Below are positions 4,568-53,908 of a stretch of DNA of 64,000 bases, piece after piece (the first letter of the stretch is position 1; every line of letters starts with the position of its first letter). Below the pieces are notes generated by a model. The model worked only from the letters and a program-made list of their open reading frames with translations, ran no database searches and was not told where the DNA came from. The DNA lies in NCBI GenBank assembly GCA_947476335.1, contig CANJQH010000008.1:1-64000 (forward strand), read 5' to 3'. This DNA comes from Anaerolineae bacterium (lineage in GTDB: Bacteria; Chloroflexota; Anaerolineae; J036; Brachytrichaceae). The position numbers and the translations under genes are program-made.

Positions 4568-5134
4568 ATGTCTGACGAAATCAAAGGGCTGATCAAGGAC
4601 GTCGAAAAGTCGATGGAAAAGTCGATTGACTCGATGGAGCAGGATTTTCATGCGCTACGCACCGGGCGTGCGTCGCCGGCGTTGGTTGAGAAGTTGCCGG
4701 TGGAGTATTACGGCAGCGACGTGCCGTTGCTGCAGCTGGCGACGATCAATGTTCCTGAAGCGCAGGTGATCATGATCAAGCCGTTCGATCCGTCTACGAT
4801 CAAGTTGATTGAAAAGGCGATCGCCGTCTCCGAACTAAAGCTGACGCCCAACAACGATGGCAAGGTGATCCGTTTGAATATCCCGCCGTTGACGGGGGAG
4901 CGTCGCCGCGACATCGTGAAGCTGGTGCACCGGCGGATGGAAGAGGCGCGCGTATCGATTCGAAATCATCGACGAGATGCGATGGACATGCTCAAGGAAA
5001 TGGAAGACGAGGGCATGATTAGCGAGGACGATCACAAGCGTGGCAAGGACGAAGTCGAAAAAGTCACAGGTCGCTTCAATGTTCGCATCGATGAACACGG
5101 TGCGCGCAAGGAGCGTGAGGTGATGGAAATCTGA
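4568..5134 (+). CDS. frr: ribosome recycling factor
   Basis: RRF works with EF-G to split post-termination ribosomes. The 188-residue length is close to the family norm of about 185. Diagnostic stretches are [20 protein letters not shown], the tRNA-mimic hinge region, and [17 protein letters not shown]. The chosen ATG has AAAGAGG (4555-4561) at good spacing. An ATG at 4517 would add 17 residues not seen in the family. uppS follows after 28 bases, the usual frr-uppS linkage. Confidence 0.96.
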
Positions 5135-5162
5135 CGGTTCTGTTACGCATCTGCAGCACTCT

Positions 5163-5939
5163 ATGACGATTACAGCGACTCGAAAACTCCCTGGTATTTC
5201 TGTACGCGCGGCGCCGAGCAGCGTGGCAGCAACTGCACCGACGCATGGTATTCGCCATCTGGCGATCATCATGGATGGTAATGGCCGCTGGGCGCGCAAG
5301 CGCAATTTGCCACGGCTGGCCGGTCATAAAGCTGGCACGGACAATCTCCATTGTGTGCTGCGCGAATGTGATCGCCAGGGCATTGAAGTTGTGACGCTCT
5401 ACGCGTTCTCAACGGAAAACTGGAGCCGGCCGGAGGAAGAGGTCAGCGGCTTGATGAAGTTGCTGGAAATCGTCATTGATCGTGAGCTGAACGAACTGCA
5501 CGCGAAAGGTGTGCAGATTCGACATATTGGCCGCATCGATCGCATTCCAGAGATGCTGCAGCGGAAGATTCGTCACGCGATTGAATACACACGCAACAAC
5601 ACGCGCCTGATTCTGAATATCGCGTTGAACTACGGTGGGCGCGCTGAGATCGTCGATGCGGTCAAGCAGCTGATCGCTGAGGGCGTTGATCCGAACTGTA
5701 TTGACGAAAAAACCGTCGGACGCTATCTATACACCGGCGGTCTGCCTGATCCGGATCTGATCGTGCGCACGAGCGGCGAGTATCGCGTGAGCAACTTCCT
5801 GATCTGGCAGGGTGCGTACTCCGAGTACTACATCACAGACGTACATTGGCCCGATTTCGATGAAAGTGAGCTGCGCAAGGCGATCGCTGTGTACAGCGCG
5901 CGCGACCGCCGTTTCGGCGGCGTGACGAAGACGGCATGA
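5163..5939 (+). CDS. uppS: undecaprenyl diphosphate synthase (isoprenyl transferase)
   Basis: A cis-prenyltransferase that condenses IPP onto farnesyl diphosphate to make the undecaprenyl carrier for peptidoglycan and polysaccharide precursors. The 258-residue protein carries [10 protein letters not shown] with the catalytic Asp at about residue 38. It also has the FSTENW segment ([11 protein letters not shown]) and the C-terminal [15 protein letters not shown] and DVHWPDF signatures that bind pyrophosphate. The first 30 residues are a variable extension. The stop overlaps the next start by four bases (ATGA), indicating coupling to the small membrane protein downstream. Confidence 0.96.
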
Positions 5940-6382
5940 GCAAACTGAATCTGCGTTATCTGCTGACGGCGCTGGTTGCCAGCCTGCTTGTCGCGCTGGG
6001 GTTCCAACGCTTCGTCAGCTCGATTCTTATCCCTGAAATGCAGGCTGGGCTGGTGGGCGCTGCATTTATCGCCGGCTGGTGGGGAAATCTAATCACCACG
6101 TTCGTCGTGGCGATTATGGGCGCGCGCAAGGCCGCACGTGAGCTGATCGATCCGCGGCTCGGCCGCATCGTCGGCACGGCGATGGGCGTATGGGTGGGCG
6201 TCGGTGCGGCTGCGGGTAACGTGATCGCGGCGCTGATCCTGGCTGGTGGCCGGCAGGCGGCGCTGAAGACGGGGCTGGTGGCGGTGTTTAGTCTGATCAG
6301 CCTGATTGTGGCGCTGGTGTCGGCGAACATCGCCGGGCGCGAAACTGCACAGCCGCCGGAAGAAGAAGAAGAGGCGGTTTGA
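5936..6382 (+). CDS. small polytopic membrane protein, function unknown
   Basis: A 148-residue protein with about four hydrophobic segments (near residues 9-28, 36-62, 83-107 and 113-135) and an acidic C-terminal tail (PPEEEEEAV). Gly/Ala-rich helices such as [19 protein letters not shown] suggest a compact helical bundle in the cytoplasmic membrane. No known family was recognised. It overlaps uppS by 4 bases and shares one base with the YraN-like gene, so it is cotranslated in the frr-uppS operon. That places it near cell-envelope lipid carrier metabolism, but no role can be assigned. Confidence 0.75.
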
Positions 6383-6777
6383 TGGCTGGCGCCGCGCGCA
6401 GCGAGATTGGCGCGTGTGGCGAGGCCATCGCCGCGCGTCACCTCGAAGCGCGTGGCTGCAAAATTCTGGCGCGTAACTGGCGGCCACCGCGCGGCAGCCG
6501 TGTGCGCGGCGAAATCGACATCGTCGCGTCGTGCGAATTTCGCCTGCTGTTCGTCGAAGTGCGCACGCGCCGCAGCGACACCTTCGGTGAGCCTGAAGAG
6601 AGCATCGATCCCCGCAAATATGCCACGCTCGTGGCCGCTGCTGAAGCGTACGTTCAATTTGAAATCCCCGCTGCTGTGCGCGACGACTGCGACTGGCGCA
6701 TCGACTTGATCGCCGTGCGCCTCGATGCGCACAACGCAGTGCAGCGGCTGGGGCATATCGAGGGGTTGGGAGGGTAG
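6382..6777 (+). CDS. YraN/UPF0102 family endonuclease-like protein
   Basis: A 131-residue protein of the UPF0102 (YraN) family, which has a restriction-endonuclease-like fold and is implicated in DNA processing. N-terminal GEAIAARHLEARGCKILARN is followed by RGEIDIVA and LLFVEVRTRR, the E-x-D...E-x-K/R arrangement of the PD-(D/E)XK core (about residues 46-64). The C-terminal half contains the usual DPRKYATLVAAAEAY helix. Its ATG overlaps the preceding TGA by one base. It is the last gene of the frr-uppS run and is followed by a strong hairpin. Confidence 0.85.
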   Translation: MAGAARSEIGACGEAIAARHLEARGCKILARNWRPPRGSRVRGEIDIVASCEFRLLFVEVRTRRSDTFGEPEESIDPRKYATLVAAAEAYVQFEIPAAVRDDCDWRIDLIAVRLDAHNAVQRLGHIEGLGG

Positions 6778-6782
6778 AAGAA

Positions 6783-6817
6783 GTTCGAAGCGCAGAGTGC
6801 CCCTCTGCGCTTCGAAC
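6783..6817. terminator. 15-bp hairpin between convergent frames
   Basis: A perfect inverted repeat, 15 bp per arm (GTTCGAAGCGCAGAG and its complement) with a 5-base loop, starts 5 bases after the YraN stop. It has no T-run but should stop transcripts from both directions. Confidence 0.65.
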
Positions 6818-6823
6818 CACGAA

Positions 6824-7056
6824 CTATTTCATGCTATCCAGCGGCGTGTACAACCGCCCGACCTGCGGGAAGTAGCTCCAGCGCATCGCCGCCGTCACCA
6901 GGGCATAGGTGCCGAGGCGGTGCATTGGTGCAGTGACGAGCCCGGTGGTGGGGTCGTAAGACTGGCCGGGGACGAGGGACCAGCTGCTCGCCGCGACCCA
7001 CTCATACAGCCACGGCTGCTGGCCGGCGGGGACCATCATGGGATTGACGGGCAGCT
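6824..7056 (-). pseudogene. C-terminal remnant of a secreted FG-GAP/IPT-type protein
   Basis: About 77 codons reading ELPVNPMMVPAGQQPWLYEW...SLVPGQSYDPTTGLVT...TYALVTAAMRWSYFPQVG are clearly homologous to the last about 110 residues of the secreted protein at 24429-27158. The shared segments there are ELPVDPSIVPNGERPWLYVF, ALVPGQRYDPATMQVT and NYYVPQVG. The frame has no natural start and enters repeat A at 7057. Beyond A, the frame that would have preceded the element soon meets a TGA, so the 5' part was already gone before A arrived. It is a decayed duplicate tail and not a functional gene. Confidence 0.75.
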
Positions 7057-7152
7057 CTAAGTTCCTGTCCATAAGTTTTGTCCGGCAGATTCGCCTCCCC
7101 CGCAAAGCGGGGGAGGCGAATCTGCCGCCAGAACTTTTGGCGACTCACTTAG
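7057..7152. mobile_element. family A palindromic MITE, copy A1
   Basis: A 96-bp copy counted from CTAAGT to ACTTAG. Its imperfect arms contain GGCAGATTCGCCTCCCCCGC and the complement around a short loop, here AAA where the other copies have TTT. The ends fit insertion of a 92-bp element into CTAG with TA duplication. It abuts the decayed surface-protein tail. Confidence 0.85.
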
Positions 7153-7218
7153 ATGTCAATGTGCACCGCGGCAGTCTCAGCAGACATTGCATGGATCGGA
7201 AGCAAAGGAGCAGTTGAT

Positions 7219-7479
7219 ATGGCTGAAAACATCGACAAGTGGGAGTACTGCAAGGTTCACTACTCTTCTACTGGCTTGAGCGGCACTTCCGCCTACGTCT
7301 ATCTGGAAGCGCAGACTGGATTTGTCAAGAAAAAAGGCTACGATGCGTCGGATGAATTCAAAGACCTGAAGGCGTTGAATCAGCTCGGTCGTGAGGGATG
7401 GGAGCTCGTGAGCACAACTCAGTATCCCCGGGGAGCGAATGGTGACTTTGCACATTTCTTGAAGCGTCGTTTGCCATAG
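7219..7479 (+). CDS. DUF4177-like small protein
   Basis: An 86-residue cytoplasmic protein with WEYCKVHY near the N-terminus and LNQLGREGWELVSTTQY followed by FLKRRLP at the end. This pattern is typical of DUF4177 and related small beta/alpha proteins of unknown function. The ATG at 7219 has AAAGGAG (7204-7210) at good spacing; an upstream in-frame ATG at 7153 lies against repeat A1 and is less likely. The 5' region borders A1, so transcription must start within or just after the element. No operon partner is seen, and the neighbours are convergent or decayed. Confidence 0.7.
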   Translation: MAENIDKWEYCKVHYSSTGLSGTSAYVYLEAQTGFVKKKGYDASDEFKDLKALNQLGREGWELVSTTQYPRGANGDFAHFLKRRLP

Positions 7480-7640
7480 CCCGGAGCGAACGAAGCATCC
7501 CTGATCTGAGCCGATCTTGACCCGTCAGCGCTGGGCATCACCGTTTTGCCGGCAAAAAGCGCCGAATGCGCGTGACCGATGCAGCCCGGGGCAATGCCAC
7601 CGCAGGTATGCTGCCTTGGAAATTCAGATGCAGCCCGACC

Positions 7641-8393
7641 CTACGGCTCAACACGCGTCACTGCGTCGAGCTTATCGAAGTCGCGGTCGTACGAGTACAG
7701 AGTCTTCTCCTGCGCCAGCAGCATGCCCGCCGCGATGAGCGCATCGCCGAAGTCGAGGCGGGTCTGGGCGAAGAGGTCCAGCGCTGCCATGACCTCTGCC
7801 TGGCTGTCGACTTCGAAGCCTGGCAGACGGATCAGCGTCTGCAGCATTTCCGCGACTGCACTTCGTTCGACCTTGTAGAGGCGCGGGGACGACAGCACAT
7901 ACACCACCTCGGCGATGGTCGTGACCGGCGTGCGCAGCACGAGTTCTCCACGCTCGACGCGCTCGAACAACTCGACTGCTTTCCTCTGTTTCGTAAGATC
8001 GTCGCCAGTCAGCAGGCGCACGATGACATCGGCGTCGAGCCTCCACTGTGTGGAATTGATGACGAAATTGGCGTTGCTCAGCAGGGTGACTTGGGATTCT
8101 GGTGAGCCATCGAAGGAAGTGCCGGTGAGCCGGCTGATCAGCGCGCCGGCGTCGTCCGCGCCTGGGAGATCGAATTCTGAATCGGCGACGATGACGTTGC
8201 CGGAGCTGAGCAGGTAGGTTTCCAGGTTCCAGGAAGGAGCGCCGGGGTAAGGAATATCGATTGCGCCGGCGTCGAGCGGGCGCGGCCCGGTGGCGGCGGC
8301 TGGATGCATGTGCGCGGCCAGCGCCAGGACGGTCGCCGCCAGGGAAGCTGCGATGCGTGACTGACGGATTTTTCGTGCGTTTTCACCCAACAT
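7641..8393 (-). CDS. chimera: exported-protein N-terminus joined in frame to a VapC-like PIN domain
   Basis: Residues about 1-33 form a signal peptide (RIAASLAATVLALAAHMHPAAA). Residues 34-115 resemble the first blade of secreted repeat proteins of the DUF5650 kind (GALISRLTG, VTLLSNANFVINS). From about residue 117 the sequence switches abruptly to a PIN domain: RLDADVIVRLLTGDD, later VTTIAEVVYVL, and C-terminal DFGDALIAAG and LYSYDRDFDKL, carrying the acidic residues of a VapC ribonuclease. The usual VapC start (M-x-D-T-N) is replaced by the junction, and I found no ATG or GTG start in frame at it. No VapB-like antitoxin lies alongside. It is either a deletion-generated fusion that would be exported or a dead toxin. 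The start chosen is the ATG giving the signal peptide. Confidence 0.65.
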   Translation of the reverse strand: MLGENARKIRQSRIAASLAATVLALAAHMHPAAATGPRPLDAGAIDIPYPGAPSWNLETYLLSSGNVIVADSEFDLPGADDAGALISRLTGTSFDGSPESQVTLLSNANFVINSTQWRLDADVIVRLLTGDDLTKQRKAVELFERVERGELVLRTPVTTIAEVVYVLSSPRLYKVERSAVAEMLQTLIRLPGFEVDSQAEVMAALDLFAQTRLDFGDALIAAGMLLAQEKTLYSYDRDFDKLDAVTRVEP

Positions 8394-8540
8394 AGATGCG
8401 CGTACTCTAAAAAAAGTCGGCGATTGTGGAAGGTGAACGTGCCTCACGAATTGGGGGATTCATGTGCATGAATTGGGTGAACTATTTTCTAATGCGGGAT
8501 TTGCGAGATGTTTTTGCCGTTTGGGGTGGATCGCTTGTAA

Positions 8541-9637
<1,097 letters not shown>

Positions 9638-9700
9638 CACTTGCACGACGCAGTTCAGCGTCGCCGACGCTGAGCTGAGTCGTTGTTCGGAATCACGCAC

Positions 9701-11350
9701 ATGCGCACCCTGCGTTCGGCATTGTCCGATGAGCCGCTGGCTCGTCTGATGGCGATTGCGGATGCGTGGGATGCGACGATTACGGCCACGTCCCGCGCGG
9801 ACGTGGCCGTTGCACTTTCCGTGCACATGCTGCAGCCCGATGCGGTGAGCGGTGCCGTTGATGCGCTGCCGGATGCGGCGCGCGAGGCATTACAGGCGAT
9901 TGCGCGCGCCGGCGGCCGCATGCCGGCGGCGACGGCTGAGCGCCGCTTCGGTGTAATTCGCCCGATGGGCCCTGGCCGCCTGGAGCGCGAACGACCATGG
10001 ATTTCACCGACCGGGCCGGCTGAAGTGTTGTGGTACCGCGGCTTCGTTTTTCGCGCCTTCGATCGCAGCGCGCGCGAGCCGGTTGAGGCGCTGTTCATCC
10101 CCACTGATCTGGCGGCGCTGCTTGGGCCGAACGAACCGGCGCCCGCGGCCGTGCCTGCGTCGGCAATACTGCGGCCCGATGACGATAAAGCTTCCAGCCC
10201 CTTGCTCGACGATGTGACTACGCTGCTGTGCCATGTACAGAACAGCGAGGTGCGCGTGCGTGCCGATGGGAGTTGGAATCCGGCTGCGCGCCGCGCTGTG
10301 GCGCGCATGCTGCGCGACGCCGACGGCGTCGAAGATGCACATCCCGACAAGCGCTTTGCACTGCTCGTACATTTGTTAAATACGCTGGGCTGGGTGCGCG
10401 TACAGGACGACCGTCTGCGCATCGTGGCGCAGCCGGTGACGCAGTGGCTGCAGCGGCCTGCGTCTGAGCGGCGCGCAGCGCTGGCGCTCGCGTGGCTGAA
10501 CGATTCTGAGTGGAACGATCTCGCACATGTGCCCGGCCTGGCGCTTGATATGACGCACGCGTGGCAGAACGAACCGCAGCGCGAGCGCGCGGCGATCGTG
10601 CGCATGTTCGGCGAATGGTGTGCGCAGCGCGGCCAGTCCGTTGCGCATGATTCGTACGATGGCGACATCGACGCATTCGTCGCCTATGTGCGCGAGGCGA
10701 ATCCCGATTTCGCGCGGATCGACGGCCGCTACGACGCGTGGCACGTGCGAGATGAAGGTACGGATGAATATTTGCACGGCTTCGAAAATTGGCGACGCGT
10801 CGAGGGCGCGCTGATCCGCAGCGTGCTGCGCGGGCCGCTGACGTGGCTGGAGGACGGCCGCATGCCGGCGCCGCCGCGCATGCCGGCGGATGCGGCGCCC
10901 TTCGTCGTCGGTGCGGATGCGACCATCACTGTGGCGGCGGCGCGCGCGTTTGAGCGTTTTCAGGCGGCGCGCGTGGCGGACTGGGACGAGACGCGGCCGG
11001 GTGCGTTTGTGTATCGGCTGACTCCGCATTCGCTGCGGCGTGCGCAGGAGCAGGGCATTCGGCCGGCGCGCGTCTTGGAGTTCCTCGCGCAGAAAAATGC
11101 TGCGCCGCTTCCCGTGTCGGTGGTGCGCGCGGTCGAGCGCTGGGCCGATGGCGGCGCCGATGCGCTGCTTGAGGCGGTCGTTGTGCTGCGCACGCGTGAT
11201 GCGGCTTCGCTCGATGCGCTGCTGCGGCTGGATGTGCTGCGCCGCGCTGGCGCCGAACGTCTGTCGCCGACCGTGGCGCTGCTGCGGCCGCGTGAGCTGC
11301 GCGCTGTGCGCGCGGCGATCGCGGGAACGGGGCTGCTGGTGGAAGAGTGA
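9701..11350 (+). CDS. Helicase_C_3-domain protein (XPB-associated type), stand-alone
   Basis: A 549-residue cytoplasmic protein with a long Arg/Ala-rich helical N-terminal region and a C-terminal Helicase_C_3-like segment at about residues 405-500 (ADATITVAAARAFERFQAA, then YRLTPHSLRRAQEQGI). The same layout recurs in the two proteins downstream of the XPB helicase at 33-39 kb, so it is a third paralogue without its own helicase. It has no Walker motif. The ATG at 9701 was preferred to a TTG at 9683. No clear ribosome site is visible. It is flanked by repeat A2 and repeat B1. A role in DNA repair or transcription-linked DNA handling is inferred only from the family's XPB association. Confidence 0.65.
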   Translation: MRTLRSALSDEPLARLMAIADAWDATITATSRADVAVALSVHMLQPDAVSGAVDALPDAAREALQAIARAGGRMPAATAERRFGVIRPMGPGRLERERPWISPTGPAEVLWYRGFVFRAFDRSAREPVEALFIPTDLAALLGPNEPAPAAVPASAILRPDDDKASSPLLDDVTTLLCHVQNSEVRVRADGSWNPAARRAVARMLRDADGVEDAHPDKRFALLVHLLNTLGWVRVQDDRLRIVAQPVTQWLQRPASERRAALALAWLNDSEWNDLAHVPGLALDMTHAWQNEPQRERAAIVRMFGEWCAQRGQSVAHDSYDGDIDAFVAYVREANPDFARIDGRYDAWHVRDEGTDEYLHGFENWRRVEGALIRSVLRGPLTWLEDGRMPAPPRMPADAAPFVVGADATITVAAARAFERFQAARVADWDETRPGAFVYRLTPHSLRRAQEQGIRPARVLEFLAQKNAAPLPVSVVRAVERWADGGADALLEAVVVLRTRDAASLDALLRLDVLRRAGAERLSPTVALLRPRELRAVRAAIAGTGLLVEE

Positions 11351-11435
11351 AGAGATTTTGGATTTTAGATTTCAGATTTTTACGTTCCGGGGCCCGTACT
11401 CGGTCTACAATCTACGACTTCAAATCTAAAATCTG

Positions 11436-11547
11436 GTAACTACTCAGGCCAGCTATTTTTCCAACGCGAAACACGCTATTCCTTCCCCCTTCGGGGGAAG
11501 GAATAGCGTGTTTCGCGGGAAATACTGATTTGGGCCTGAGTAGTTAC
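11436..11547. mobile_element. family B palindromic MITE, copy B1
   Basis: A 112-bp copy with terminal repeats GTAACTACTCAGGCC and the complement, and a central CTTCCCCCTTCGGGGGAAGG hairpin. The 8-bp direct repeat AAAATCTG sits at 11428-11435 and 11548-11555, a perfect target duplication. GTAA ends with 8-bp duplications are features of the IS66 family. Confidence 0.9.
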
Positions 11548-11576
11548 AAAATCTGAAATCTGAAATCTGCAACTAA

Positions 11577-13055
11577 ATGACGCTTCTAGAACATTACGCG
11601 CTCGGCCAGCCTGGCCGATTCTTCGACGAAATGTTTGCCGCCGCTGCCGACGGCGAAGCGCGCCCTGAAGCGCGACCTCACTACCGCGAGCTTGCAGAGC
11701 AACTGCAGGCGCTTTCTGCTTCTGCGTTCGAGGAGCGCCGCAAGGCGGCCGACCAGGTTTTCCTCACGCAGGGCATCACCTTTACGGTGTACAGCGAACG
11801 CGACAACATCGAGCGGATTTTCCCGTTCGACCTCGTGCCGCGCGTGATTCCAAACGCTGAATGGCGGCGCCTCGAGCGCGGCCTGCAGCAGCGCGTCGTG
11901 GCGTTGAATTTATTTCTGCACGATGTGTATCACGGGCAGCGCATCGTGCATGATGGCGTGATCCCGGCGCATCTGGTGTATGGGGCTAAAAACTATCGTC
12001 GCGAGATGATCGGTGTGAACGTGCCCAACAACGTGTACATGCACATCGTCGGTACCGACCTGGTGCGTGACGTGCACGGCGAGTACTACGTGCTGGAGGA
12101 CAACGGCCGTTGTCCATCGGGCGTGAGCTACATGCTTGAGAATCGCCAGGCGATGAAGCGTGTGTTTTCGCGTTTGTTCGAACGCTACGGTGTGATGCCG
12201 GTTGAGCATTATCCGATCGAGCTGCACAACATGCTGCGCAGCGTGGCGCCGTGGAATATGTCGCAGGATCGCGACCCGGTGGTGGTGCTGCTGACGCCGG
12301 GCGTGTTCAACTCGGCGTACTTTGAACATTCGTTTCTGGCGCGCATGATGGGCATTGAGATTGTCGAAGGGCGCGATCTGGTGGTGCACGAAGGGCGTGT
12401 ATACACGCGCACGACGCGCGGGCTGAGGCCGGTCGATGTGATCTACCGGCGCGTGGACGACGACTTCGTCGACCCGCTGACGTTCAAGGCGGACACGATG
12501 CTGGGGGTGCCGGGGTTGTTCAACGCAGTGCGCGCTGGCACAGTGACGCTGGCCAATGCGATCGGCACGGGCGTAGCGGACGACAAAGCGACGTATGCCT
12601 TCGTGCCGGAGATGATCCGCTATTACTTGAAGGAAGAGCCGGTGCTGCCGAATGTGCCGACGTATCTGGCCTATCGCGACGACGATCGTCGGTACATTCT
12701 TGAGCATCTCGACGAGCTGGTGGTGAAGAGTGTGAACGAGAGCGGCGGCTACGGCATGCTCGTTGGCCCGCATAGCACAGTCGAACAGCGCACGAAATTC
12801 GCCGAGATGATCCGCCATGATCCACGCAACTTTATTGCGCAGCCGACGTTGTCGCTGAGCCGGCACCCGACTTTTCTGGACGGAGCGCTGGAAGGGTGCC
12901 ACATCGATCTGCGGCCGTATGCGTTGTGTTCGAGTTTGGACAAAGTGACGATTGTGCCGGGCGGGCTGACACGTGTGGCATTGCAGCGCGGCTCGCTGGT
13001 GGTGAATTCGTCGCAGGGCGGCGGATCGAAAGACACGTGGGTTCTCTACGATTAA
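11577..13055 (+). CDS. circularly permuted ATP-grasp family 2 protein (DUF404/DUF407)
   Basis: A 492-residue protein of the circularly permuted ATP-grasp type 2 family. These are predicted to ligate a carboxylate to an amine in a peptide-like product. Recognisable stretches are GITFTVY near residue 65, [41 protein letters not shown] (ATP-grasp core) and a C-terminal [20 protein letters not shown]. It is followed by an alpha-E protein and a transglutaminase-like protein, the standard three-gene cluster. The ATG follows an AAATCTG micro-repeat and lacks a ribosome site. A TACAAT box at 11406-11411 is separated from it by repeat B1. Confidence 0.9.
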
Positions 13056-49498: not shown

Positions 49499-49549
49499 TT
49501 ATGGAATGAAAATCTCTGGGCTAAGAAGCCGGGGATTTTCGTTGCATAA
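49499..49549. mobile_element. family D palindrome, copy D2
   Basis: A 51-bp hairpin, TTATGGAATGAAAATC...GTTGCATAA, homologous to D1. On the minus strand it encodes the last about 16 residues and the TAA stop of the drmB-like frame, so it truncates that gene. Confidence 0.72.
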
Positions 49550-51016
49550 CAACGCGCGTCCGGCCGCGACCAGCGTGCCCGCCGCATCGGCCGCGCCGTA
49601 AATCAGCACGCCGAAGCGCCCACTCGCCTCGTGCGCATAGATGCGCTCTTTGAGATCGGCTTCCGCGCAGTCGCACTTCACCGCAATCTCGGCAATCAAC
49701 AAACGCGCCAGCGCGCTCAGCTGCGCATATGTCGCTCCGTTCTCCGCACGAACTGCGTTCGGATCGAATTCCAGAAATATGCCCTCGCTGTAGTTCTCGT
49801 GCGCCGGCAGCCAGTTTTGTTCTCGGCTCAGCGCGCTGCGCGGCGCATTTGCGGGCAGCTCGCCCTGTTCATCTGGCGCCGTCGCTTCAAAGCGCGTGAA
49901 ACCCAGCAGCGCCGTCACCTCGCGCAGCCGATGTACCAGCATTGCGCGTCGCAGGACACTCATCCATGCCATATCTGCCCATTGCTCGCGCGGCAGCTCG
50001 CGCACCATCAGCATTACCTCATTTGCAGCGCCATCTGCAGCGCCATTTGCAGCGCCATCGACGCATGCGCTGACGAATGCGTCGAACTCAACATGTTTGA
50101 GTGGCTGTATGTCGCGCGTATTGATTTCACGCCGATGAGCCACAGCCGCCAGTATCGATTCTTCACTGAATGGTTGTAGCAACCGACTTACCACGCGTTT
50201 TTGACGCGCTTTCGCTATCTCGGCATGCGTCTCGACAAACTGGAAAATCGTATCCCAATGCGCATGCATGATCTTGTCGAGCGGGTCGCTGACGTCGGGG
50301 ATGGTGATGACGGTGAGCGTCTGTGGGAAGTACGCGTGCGCCGCGTCGCGCAGTAACAGTCGGCTTCGGTTTGTGCATGTAGCGTGCTCATCGTCTCCGA
50401 GCCAGGGCTGCCGTCCGCTGCATCGGCCGAATACGGTCGATGCACTCAGCGTACGCTGCGCTCCGCACTCGCAACGCACTGTGCTGTTTGTGCCGCCTTC
50501 GTCCATCCCTTCGTCCATCCCTTCGTCCATCCATAGATCATGTGTGCATTCGCTGGCTTTGTGATGCACGAAACTGCGCCAATTGATGTCGTCGATATGG
50601 CCACTCACGCAGGCCTGCACAAAGTGCACGGGCAGAACTTTTTGTTTTTTGTTTGTGCGGTGGTCATGAAAATTACCGTCGTCGAGTTGACTGATATGCA
50701 CCAGGCGGCGGCCCAGCTTGTGCGCCTCCGTGTTTTGCACGAGGAACCATTCCGGAAATTGCCACGCCGTCACTTTTGTGCGCGCGCCGTACTTTTGCGT
50801 ACTGTGCGGCAGCGCACGCAGCGTCAGCGCCGGCGCTTTGCAATGCCGCCTGAGCCGCATCGTCAGACGTGGCTCATCGATGGGATGCGCATCTCCTGGG
50901 ACGTAGTGCCAGTCGTCCAGCCCGGCGATGATGGCCGTGGCGTTGGTCGTGTTTAGCAACGCGCCCGGCCCTCTGTGCGTCACCAGATGGATGCTTTGCA
51001 TTTGCCCTTTGCCCAT
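49499..51016 (-). CDS. DrmB-like (DUF1998) DISARM protein, C-terminally truncated
   Basis: A 505-residue protein with the DrmB layout. The N-terminal HRGPGALLNTTNATAIIAGLD corresponds to the GPGA...VIVAGLD opening. FPEWFLVQN and VHFVQACVSGHIDDINWRSF follow, then a Cys cluster (VRCECGAQR, GRCSGRQPWLG), YFPQTLTVITIP, and NYSEGIFLEFD. Near the end, LIAEIAVKCDCAEADLKERI and GVLIYGAADAAGTL match the start of the DUF1998/MZB region. The last Cys-rich about 80 residues of typical DrmB are missing: after GTLVAAGRA the frame runs through palindrome D2. It begins one base after the drmA-like stop, with GAGGAGG inside drmA, so the pair is coupled. DrmB is a core DISARM anti-phage protein; activity of this form is doubtful. 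Confidence 0.75.
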   Translation of the reverse strand: MGKGQMQSIHLVTHRGPGALLNTTNATAIIAGLDDWHYVPGDAHPIDEPRLTMRLRRHCKAPALTLRALPHSTQKYGARTKVTAWQFPEWFLVQNTEAHKLGRRLVHISQLDDGNFHDHRTNKKQKVLPVHFVQACVSGHIDDINWRSFVHHKASECTHDLWMDEGMDEGMDEGGTNSTVRCECGAQRTLSASTVFGRCSGRQPWLGDDEHATCTNRSRLLLRDAAHAYFPQTLTVITIPDVSDPLDKIMHAHWDTIFQFVETHAEIAKARQKRVVSRLLQPFSEESILAAVAHRREINTRDIQPLKHVEFDAFVSACVDGAANGAADGAANEVMLMVRELPREQWADMAWMSVLRRAMLVHRLREVTALLGFTRFEATAPDEQGELPANAPRSALSREQNWLPAHENYSEGIFLEFDPNAVRAENGATYAQLSALARLLIAEIAVKCDCAEADLKERIYAHEASGRFGVLIYGAADAAGTLVAAGRALLCNENPRLLSPEIFIP

Positions 51017-51017
51017 G

Positions 51018-53648
51018 TCATCCTCCTCGGATTCCGCGCCTGACGCGCTGTGGTACGCGCCGTATTTCAACTTCCACAACCGGTTCGATGATGTGCAGCG
51101 TGCGTTCTGCACGGAAGGTACAGCCTTCAATTTGTATTTCAGAAAATTCACGCAACAGCGGTGGATAACCGCCGGCCAGCTCCGTGCCGTATTGCAGTGG
51201 CGCCTCTGTCTGCTGCTGGTCGTTGACGATGCGCCTCCACTCTTGCAGCAGATTGCGCCCGCGCACCAGCACAGCTTCGACGAATTCGTCGTCAGCCCCG
51301 CTCGATGCCGCGCGCTGCGCCAGCGTCAGCGTCGCGCATTCGGCCGCATCTGTCGCCTGTGCGATTTGTGCTGCGCCCTGCGGCGGCGTCATCTCCGGTT
51401 CGCTGTAGCGCACCAGCGCGACGAGCAGCGCCGGCAACGCCCGATCCAGCGCGCGTGGCGAAAATGACGCCGTACGTGGCGGCGTTTCGCACGCACACAG
51501 GAAGCGCTCGCAACGCCGCCGCTCGCGCAAATTTTGCATGTTCAGCACGGTGACGATGAGGCCATCGTTCTGCTGTGGCAGGCGCGCGCGTATGGCTTCT
51601 GCCTGCTGCACAGTTGCTGCGGCAATGTAGATGTGGGTTTGTGCGTGCGACGCTTCGTGGGGACGATTTAGAGGCGGAGGGAAACTCGTCGTCTCGCGCC
51701 GGTCAAATAACCCGCGCATGAATTCTTTCGCCGGGAACGCCTCCGCCGCGCCGGCGATGATCTTCGGCCGCACGCGCTGGCCTTTCACCATGCGCGTCGC
51801 CAGCGTGTCAACCACAGCTTCATAGGCACCGAACATGCTGCCAAAGACGCCGCATAGATGTTCTAGACCTTCCTGCAGAATCAGGTCGGGCCCTGGCAGC
51901 ACGTCGTGCAGCTGCACGCAGTCGCGCGGTCGCACTGCACCTGTCTGCGCCGGTCCGTAGTAGCCGTGCGCATCCCATGCATCGACGTGGCCGAACAGCG
52001 CGCCGAGTTCGCCGGCCCAAGGCAGCGCTGCAAATTTATCGGCGTCGGCGATCAGAAACGCCGGTAGCCGCCGGTGGATGGATTCATCGACGGTGTGCAC
52101 CGGCAGGCTGTGCTCGCCGCCGAAGTCGCAGTTCGGATTGGCGCAGCGCACGCGCATTTCGAGCGGATCGCGGTCGTTTGGCCACATGGAGAATGACCCC
52201 CGACTGAATTTTGTCCCGCACCATGGGCACGCCTGCAGCGGAATCGGTGCAGGATTGCGCTGGTCGTCTTGTTTAAAGCGCATCATGCGCGCGTAAGCGG
52301 AGTGCTCAGCGTCGATATGTTTTTCGCCGGCGCGGCCGATGCGGACGGATGCGCTGGTGTGTTCAACCCATAGGCCAATTTCGAAAGGCCATTCGCCCAT
52401 CTGCTGTGGAGCGCGCGCGCGTTCGAGCTCAAGCGCACAGATGATGCCTGTGGCGCGGCTGAGCAGATCGGGGGTGAGGGCATGCCTGGCGGCGCGCAAC
52501 AGTACGCTTACGCCGCCGCCGTCCCGTCCCGGCTTGCGCAGGCGGCGCAGTACCATGGCGAAGGCGGCTGGGCCGAGGTGCGCATTGAGCCGCTCATCAT
52601 CGTCGAGCCGAAAAAACAAATCCGCTCGCTCACGATCAACATGTGCCGGATCGCAGAGTCCGCGCAGCGTCAACAGCAGGAAAGTCAGTTGGAATGGGTG
52701 CCATGTGGCACTCGCTTTGCGCTGGCGTGCCGCAGCGGCCAGTGCACGGCTGGTGATGCAAAAAGCGCTGAGAATTTGCTGGTCATGCAGCAGGGCAATG
52801 CCCTCCTCGACGCGCTGTGCATCGTCGCCGGCCAGCACCGCGAGGGGGGCGAGTGCCGCCGCTGCCGCAGCGCCATCAGCCAGCGCACCGAGGACGTCCA
52901 TGCTCAGTTCACCAAGCGCTGTGGGCGGTGCAGATTCCAGCGGCGCAGTCGGTGTCCAGTCGCTGCGCACTTCGCGGCAGACGCCGTCGGCATCGAGCTG
53001 CTGCGCTGGCGCGATGCCGTGGCCAATGGCGAATGTGTTCGGCTGTGAGGCGTGTGGGGCGTGTGGGGCGAAGCCTTCGGCACAGCGCAACACCAGTGTC
53101 ACCTGAAATGCACAGCTGCGCTGGGGTGCGTTCGGCTGTGCTGCGCGGCGGTTGATGAGAAAGACGTCGACGAACTCGCCACGCATGCGCACCGTGAGCT
53201 GCAGCCCGCCGGAATCGGGCACGTCGATGGGCACACCTGGCGCTGGAATCGGGATGCACAACATTGCGCTGCGTGGAATGCGTCGATAACAATCCCCCGC
53301 TTCTTGTTCATAGTCCCCCCAGTACACTTCCACGTCGAGCGCCGCAACGGATCGTCGCAGCCGCACGTTCAGGCCCAATGAGGTCGGTGCCGTGTAGTCA
53401 GGGGCGTCATCGAAGGCCTGTGTGTGCGCAAGTTCAGGGTATGAGCTGACGAAATTGGCAGCCGCATGTGGTTTGACGCGCGCCTCCGTCGAGGTGAGCA
53501 AACCGAGCGGATATCGGCACTGCGGTGGTTCCGACAGCATCTCGTGCGCCCCCAGGGGCGCATCCGGGGCCGCTGGCTCATAGAAATGCTCCGGACCAAT
53601 CAATCTTAGTCGGAGTGTATGGATGTGAGCGGGATAGTTTTTATCCAT
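51018..53648 (-). CDS. DrmA-like DISARM protein lacking helicase motifs (pseudo-helicase)
   Basis: An 876-residue protein whose conserved scaffold matches the DISARM helicase DrmA: GPAAFAMVLRRLRKPGRDG, ICALELERA...FEIGLWVEH, CPWCG (about 470), LPVHTVDESIHRRLPAFLIA, ADKFAALPW, FGSMFGAYEAVVDTL, PKIIAG, FPPPLN, and VTVLN...SPRALDRALPALLVALVR. The catalytic motifs are absent. Where the family has GGGKTEAYLG this protein has DDDERLNAHLG (about 346-356). QDELHLI is QEGLEHLC, and the SAT-type motif is GAAEA. The region with the arginine-finger motif VI is deleted between about residues 685 and 692. No GK[ST] occurs anywhere. The frame is nonetheless intact. The start is the ATG before the conserved N-terminus; an extension through B4/A4 is spurious. 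Confidence 0.72.
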   Translation of the reverse strand: MDKNYPAHIHTLRLRLIGPEHFYEPAAPDAPLGAHEMLSEPPQCRYPLGLLTSTEARVKPHAAANFVSSYPELAHTQAFDDAPDYTAPTSLGLNVRLRRSVAALDVEVYWGDYEQEAGDCYRRIPRSAMLCIPIPAPGVPIDVPDSGGLQLTVRMRGEFVDVFLINRRAAQPNAPQRSCAFQVTLVLRCAEGFAPHAPHASQPNTFAIGHGIAPAQQLDADGVCREVRSDWTPTAPLESAPPTALGELSMDVLGALADGAAAAAALAPLAVLAGDDAQRVEEGIALLHDQQILSAFCITSRALAAAARQRKASATWHPFQLTFLLLTLRGLCDPAHVDRERADLFFRLDDDERLNAHLGPAAFAMVLRRLRKPGRDGGGVSVLLRAARHALTPDLLSRATGIICALELERARAPQQMGEWPFEIGLWVEHTSASVRIGRAGEKHIDAEHSAYARMMRFKQDDQRNPAPIPLQACPWCGTKFSRGSFSMWPNDRDPLEMRVRCANPNCDFGGEHSLPVHTVDESIHRRLPAFLIADADKFAALPWAGELGALFGHVDAWDAHGYYGPAQTGAVRPRDCVQLHDVLPGPDLILQEGLEHLCGVFGSMFGAYEAVVDTLATRMVKGQRVRPKIIAGAAEAFPAKEFMRGLFDRRETTSFPPPLNRPHEASHAQTHIYIAAATVQQAEAIRARLPQQNDGLIVTVLNMQNLRERRRCERFLCACETPPRTASFSPRALDRALPALLVALVRYSEPEMTPPQGAAQIAQATDAAECATLTLAQRAASSGADDEFVEAVLVRGRNLLQEWRRIVNDQQQTEAPLQYGTELAGGYPPLLREFSEIQIEGCTFRAERTLHIIEPVVEVEIRRVPQRVRRGIRGG

Positions 53649-53702
53649 GTGCCTTACTGCTATAGATTGCCATAGTTCTTTTACGGAATTTCGTAGTAAA
53701 TC

Positions 53703-53908
53703 GTAACTACTCAGGCCCAAATCAATATTTCCCAACGCGAAACATGCGATTCCTTCCCCTTCAGGGGAAGGAATCGCATGTTTCGCGTTGGGAAAATGGC
53801 TAAGTTCCTGTCCATAAGTTTTGTCCAGCAGATTCGCCTCCCCCGCTTTGCAGGGGAGGCGAATCTGCCGCCAGAACTTTTGGCGACTCACTTAGCCTGA
53901 GTAGTTAC
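53703..53908. mobile_element. family B MITE, copy B4, interrupted by A4
   Basis: A B element in the orientation of B3. Perfect target duplications AGTAAATC lie at 53695-53702 and 53909-53916. It totals 206 bp because A4 is inserted near the right end. Subtracting 94 bp (92-bp A plus one TA) leaves 112 bp, exactly the length of B1, B3 and B6. Confidence 0.93.
53800..53895. mobile_element. family A MITE, copy A4, nested inside B4
   Basis: A 96-bp A copy inserted between ATGGC and GCCTGAG of B4. The empty site reads GGCTAGCC where other B copies read GGCTGGCC, so a CTAG target was present and TA duplicated. A4 has two small differences in its arms compared with A2 and A3 (GTCCAGCAG, TTTGCAGG). 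Confidence 0.93.

Follow-up and report, generated by a model that had tools for sequence, protein, structure and literature searches.

A DrmA–DrmB-like gene pair lacking helicase motifs in an Anaerolineae genome

The closest known counterpart of the gene pair reported here is the DrmA–DrmB complex of DISARM, in which the ATP site is built from the RecA domains and a DUF1998 domain at the RecA1/RecA2 boundary is proposed to act as an allosteric relay, passing DNA binding on to the motor (PMC9142583). Mutation of the DrmA residues that contact ADP lowered DISARM defence, removal of the DrmA trigger loop resulted in broader DNA binding, and the interface of the complex is formed from the DrmA tail and the N-terminal region of DrmB (PMC9142583).

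The gene pair and its genomic setting

The window, a 64,000-nucleotide stretch of an Anaerolineae genome, contains a drmA-like gene (51018..53648, minus strand; 876 aa) that lacks Walker A and the bulk of RecA2 and includes the chassis, the RecA1 scaffold and the C-terminal part, followed by a drmB-like gene (49499..51016, minus strand; 505 aa) without the DUF1998 zinc-cluster segment. The assembly is a draft (125 contigs, 92.7% complete), with the locus situated inside a 69-kb contig. At the junction of the two genes (51014..51031, minus strand; GAGGAGGATGACATG) the TGA stop of drmA is separated by 1 base from the ATG of drmB, and the strong Shine-Dalgarno sequence of drmB, GAGGAGG, lies within the final drmA codons. 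The drmA frame opens with ATG and has no internal stops. From stop to stop it would reach 53891, and this coding extension was ruled out, positions 53698..53900 (no strand assigned) being a palindromic, multi-copy intergenic repeat upstream of and outside the gene. The repeat, seen also at L092–L096, is ~100–200 bp long, occurs in more than 40 genome copies at >80% identity and is MITE-like or REP-like. A promoter search of the region upstream of drmA gave no match. The GC3 of the pair is 0.67–0.69, lower than the 0.72–0.83 of neighbouring genes.

Membership of the 876-aa protein in the DrmA family, as proposed in the initial annotation, is borne out by matches to the PADLOC DrmA profile (E=1.8e-101) and to NCBIfam DrmAS (NF038325, E=8.9e-114), where the score lies under the model's full-length cut-off because large parts of the protein are absent (relatives have ~1,135–1,215 aa). 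Its pairing with DrmB also holds, as the 505-aa partner matches NCBIfam DrmB (NF038324) with E=3.6e-88 and 296.9 bits, above the cut-off of 240.

A search of the window genome with the DrmC of a relative as query gave no match, and DrmMI had no match either in the genome or beside the pair, the assembly being 92.7% complete and the searches covering DrmC, DrmMI and DrmD. As neither DrmC nor DrmMI was detected, the pair is taken to be a two-gene remnant or derivative. The SNF2 proteins matched with DrmD in the window genome are of the DpdE and HmaA types. Elsewhere in this genome (L190, G000:C28; 727–17486) lies a defence cluster with a DpdE-like SNF2 protein, a 1752-aa Druantia DruE-like helicase and a complete-looking HmaA–HmaB, which is a possible partner context for a motor-less DrmAB.

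Related loci resemble ordinary DISARM: genome G094 has the order drmD-drmMI-drmA-drmB-drmC, and G410 has drmMI, drmA, drmB and drmC together with a GmrSD-like gene and a DarTG-like pair. In the G410 locus (L049), the DarTG-like pair and the GmrSD/type IV-like gene are situated between drmMI and drmA in the DISARM operon (8142–11908), and the frame of drmA (4588–7973) breaks after GRPGLVVS, the helicase motifs being intact, through either ordinary breakage or an error in assembly. A further reduced DISARM layout may occur on plasmid pTs485 of Ca. Thiodictyon syntrophicum (L189, 7971–13204), which carries an annotated drmA and an adjoining DUF1998 gene, no annotated drmC alongside and, upstream, both a transposase and a DNA methyltransferase.

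Losses and retentions in the two proteins

The motif changes in the DrmA-like protein were read off an alignment to active relatives, with all positions on the minus strand. At motif I (Walker A; 52572..52610), FPTGGGKTEAYLG is replaced by RLDDDERLNAHLG, and at motif Ia (52461..52496), RYTLRLLTLDQL is replaced by RAARHALTPDLL, RYTLRLLT becoming RAARHALT. A conserved loop (52344..52370) reads WVEHTSASV for WVGKGATPN. At motif Ib (52029..52052) IATVDKFA has become IADADKFA, in which the equivalent of K803, a lysine touching DNA in active DrmA, appears to be retained. Motif II (DExH; 51840..51887) has changed from DLIIQDELHLISGPLG to DLILQEGLEHLCGVFG, and motif III (SAT; 51729..51758) from IASTATVRRA to IAGAAEAFPA. 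The RecA2 scar (51549..51674) marks the in-frame loss of ~10, 100 and 53 residues, including motifs IV–VI, and the RecA2 deletion totals ~150 aa, the bulk of the domain. With SF2 motifs I, II, III, V and VI and the ATPase site all substituted or deleted, the protein is therefore a DrmA homologue and not an active DrmA. The alignment confirms each of the Walker A, DELH and SAT-like changes first read from the sequence, and GK[ST] is absent from all 876 residues. The list of lost motifs given at that stage was short, as Ia and Ib are altered as well, and motif VI, correctly reported as deleted, has gone together with IV and V.

The extent of the divergence was gauged on the 232 DrmA columns in which 30 active DrmAs reach an identity of 95% or more. 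Of these, 122 are unchanged in the window protein, 63 carry substitutions and 47 are missing, compared with a retention of 88–100% by active relatives in a leave-one-out test on the same columns. The substitutions cluster in motifs I, Ia, Ib, II and III and in the WVGKGATPN loop. The initial annotation had described loss confined to catalytic positions in a protein with an intact, end-to-end scaffold. The concentration in motifs and the open frame both stand, but the description is overstated, given the shortened length, the ~11 lineage-specific in-frame indels and the divergence of the terminal parts, where 40% (N-terminal chassis) and 44% (C-terminal part) of the close-set invariant residues are changed, compared with 32% and 37% in the active sister G409.

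The zinc-finger region of the DrmA-like protein (CPWC...C....C; 52128..52229, minus strand) keeps 4/4 cysteines that are invariant in 30/30 relatives, and 5/5 invariant DrmA cysteines are retained overall. The counterpart of the pivot arm with which DrmA wraps DrmB, the C-terminal tail (51021..51128, minus strand), is present as FRAERTLHIIEP for FRASRSLRDVEP, with the equivalents of R1294 replaced and of V1296 changed. In an alignment to 7s9v, whose chain numbering seems offset by one, the equivalents of the DNA contacts R659 and K803 appear to be kept. The segment preceding PSSxGL, the trigger loop by position, has a net charge of -3, compared with -4 to -12 in active DrmAs.

DrmB is altered in parallel with DrmA, a point missed in the initial annotation and added here. 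A loop of 30 residues is missing from the DrmB-like protein, as is the DUF1998 segment at its C-terminus. Its cysteine-rich region (50375..50611, minus strand) retains 5/5 near-invariant cysteines. At the C-terminal scar (49502..49546, minus strand) CNENP is present and the four further DUF1998 cysteines are deleted, so that 4/5 conserved columns are gone and no four-cysteine zinc cluster is left. Functionally, what the DrmA-like protein has lost matches what the DrmB-like protein has lost, because the DrmAB structure places DUF1998 at the RecA1/RecA2 boundary (PMC9142583).

AlphaFold models have mean pLDDT values of 76 (DrmA-like) and 83 (DrmB-like), from alignments of 31 and 33 sequences. 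Those sequences are active relatives, and the confidence therefore shows that the proteins are compatible with the fold, without indicating that they are stable. The models are confident over most of the N-terminal chassis, RecA1 and C-terminal helices, but not at the scar in RecA2 or over the final residues of DrmB. The best PDB matches of the models are 7s9w_A/7s9v_A for the DrmA-like and 7s9v_B for the DrmB-like protein.

Within-gene constraint and the search for a second case

No stop was observed in the 876+505 (1,381) codons of the pair, compared with ~10 in drmA and ~6 in drmB (~16 in total) expected from simulated neutral drift to 34% amino-acid change. The ~16 lineage-specific indels, some of which may predate loss of the motor, are all in frame. 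No hidden frameshifts were found by a frameshift-tolerant aligner at a penalty of 12 or 16, and a penalty of 8 yielded mostly short compensating groups at a gain of a few points.

Residues invariant in close active relatives are changed at 38/63 motif positions (60%) and at 20/114 positions of the RecA1 scaffold (18%; P=1.3e-8), whereas the active sister G409 has changes at 1/64 motif (2%) and 36/150 scaffold positions (24%). With a broader set of 30 DrmAs the contrast was repeated, 30/52 motif versus 7/59 scaffold residues being changed (P=3e-7). Codon-position-2 divergence was compared in place of classical dN/dS because third positions are saturated (~0.5–0.7 differences). In the scaffold it is 0.27–0.29 for the window gene versus 0.25–0.29 among active relatives, and in the motifs 0.40–0.43 versus 0–0.03 at position 2, and 0–0.07 at most. 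Region-wise branch lengths are inverted in the same sense (motifs 2.13, scaffold 0.64). Thus the scaffold is conserved and the catalytic positions are free to vary, as in a pseudo-helicase.

The nearest relatives are the DrmA proteins of G410 (51%) and G409 (49%, both over the central 400 residues), two genomes from the same taxonomic family, followed by DrmAs of another family of the phylum (47–51%). The tree groups the window protein with G409/G410 as their sister (98/92); its branch is very long, which makes the placement uncertain. The homologues with the same lost motifs called for in the initial annotation were sought in 28 genomes of the order, 396 of the class and 400 of the phylum, in two scans of genome contigs, and in viral contigs and plasmids, and none was found, the best identity being 51%. 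The matches from sources other than plasmids retain the motifs wherever the region is present. The same is true of ~120 other DrmAs (35 ORFs of the phylum and ~90 more), none of which shares the window pattern, and motif absences among them were traced to fragments, contig ends, spelling variants and frame breaks.

Four candidates for a second motor-less DrmA were ruled out: L104 has ATGGGKT, both Walker A and DELH are present in L137, L115 is a fragment of the N-terminal part, and L128, from a Latescibacterota MAG, is a copy with a broken frame that retains GGKT and DELH. The Walker A of L128 is one Gly short (PTGGKT), and its frame stops before RecA2. The motor-less DrmAB is a singleton, and no report of an inactivated DrmA was found in the literature searched. 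As no second case was found, dN/dS across homologues is impossible for now and selection is inferred from one sequence.

Interpretation and comparison with known systems

The sequence evidence is best explained by a DISARM drmA–drmB core that became a motor-less pseudo-helicase complex and was retained by purifying selection, to which a probability of about 0.6 is assigned. Selective loss of motifs within a conserved scaffold gives partial support to the repurposed pseudo-helicase suggested at the outset, whose new use, perhaps in a two-gene system that restricts phage, is hypothetical. The main rival, considered unlikely, is plain decay, in which DISARM lost its other genes and drmA–drmB are drifting pseudogenes that have stayed open by chance so far. 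Undetected DrmC and DrmMI, the long branch, the large deletions, the lack of a homologue in the same state and the slightly eroded GC3 would all fit such a relic. The open frame, the exclusively in-frame indels, the motif/scaffold contrast and the kept cysteines argue against uniform neutral decay, which fits them poorly: 0 stops occur for ~16 expected, frameshifts are absent, the contrast reaches P=1e-8 with no acceleration of the scaffold, and every invariant cysteine outside DUF1998 is kept. Moreover, L128, a copy broken in the usual way, has a frame break but otherwise intact motifs.

It is improbable that the pair is a decoy or dominant-negative form, mixing with an incoming, mobile, active DrmA or DrmB so as to block it or avert self-attack. 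Active DISARM is present in the same family and the interface, which joins the tail of DrmA to the N-terminal part of DrmB, is partly kept, but the window genome has no active DISARM core to inhibit, the R1294 and V1296 equivalents of the tail are changed, and the proposal is purely hypothetical. A sequencing or assembly artefact mimicking motif loss can be given next to no weight even in a draft of 125 contigs, since dozens of codon-respecting substitutions and in-frame deletions in an open frame are beyond read error and the window lies within a 69-kb contig.

For the favoured pseudo-helicase complex, the following course is envisaged. The drmA–drmB core would derive from the same stock as the DISARM of the two other genomes of the family. 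The sequences show that the ATP site (motifs I–III), the motifs for stepping along DNA (Ia, Ib, IV–VI) and the DrmB DUF1998 cysteine cluster have been lost, and that the DrmA chassis, the RecA1 scaffold and zinc finger, the other DrmB cysteine region, the DrmB-wrapping DrmA tail and the operon coupling are retained. The pair would still heterodimerise and would be unable to bind or hydrolyse ATP or to step along DNA. Apparent retention of the R659 and K803 contacts, a less acidic loop and the broader binding that follows loop removal favour an ATP-free role, most likely in DNA-end/ssDNA binding or scaffolding, the exact function being put forward with low confidence. It may passively sense or block phage DNA or DNA ends, or serve as a subunit of another cellular defence system. 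It is proposed tentatively that the two proteins derive from the DISARM core but act independently of ATP, the motor having been removed jointly with the allosteric relay and the remainder, a DNA-binding or scaffold complex, being selected for a new role. If correct, a motor-less DrmAB with a kept framework would imply another use of the complex that needs no ATP, and would provide a natural dissection of the DISARM parts that bind DNA from those that drive it. The comparison of motif and scaffold constraint within one gene would also offer a way to tell, from a single genome, whether a defence gene has been repurposed or is decaying.

Of the known systems, DISARM DrmA–DrmB (7s9v/7s9w; PMC9142583) is the top match in both sequence and fold, sharing the gene order, chassis, RecA1 scaffold, zinc finger and N-terminal part of DrmB. 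The window pair differs from it in lacking Walker A, DExH, SAT, most of RecA2 and the DUF1998 cysteine cluster, with no DrmMI or nuclease found, and the ATP binding or hydrolysis that DISARM requires is, by sequence, not possible. The YprA-family defence helicases (Dpd, Druantia, ARMADA) belong to a common superfamily, in which canonical Dpd, as described in passages of a survey (PMC12458937), is also without the DUF1998 cysteine cluster; those passages describe no inactivated YprA/DrmA helicase core. Utp25 of the yeast SSU processome, titled a pseudohelicase (PMC9539457), is from an unrelated family and an RNA context, and no homology to the window DrmA is claimed, but it provides an analogy for how such a protein could work, namely as a helicase fold that serves without helicase activity.
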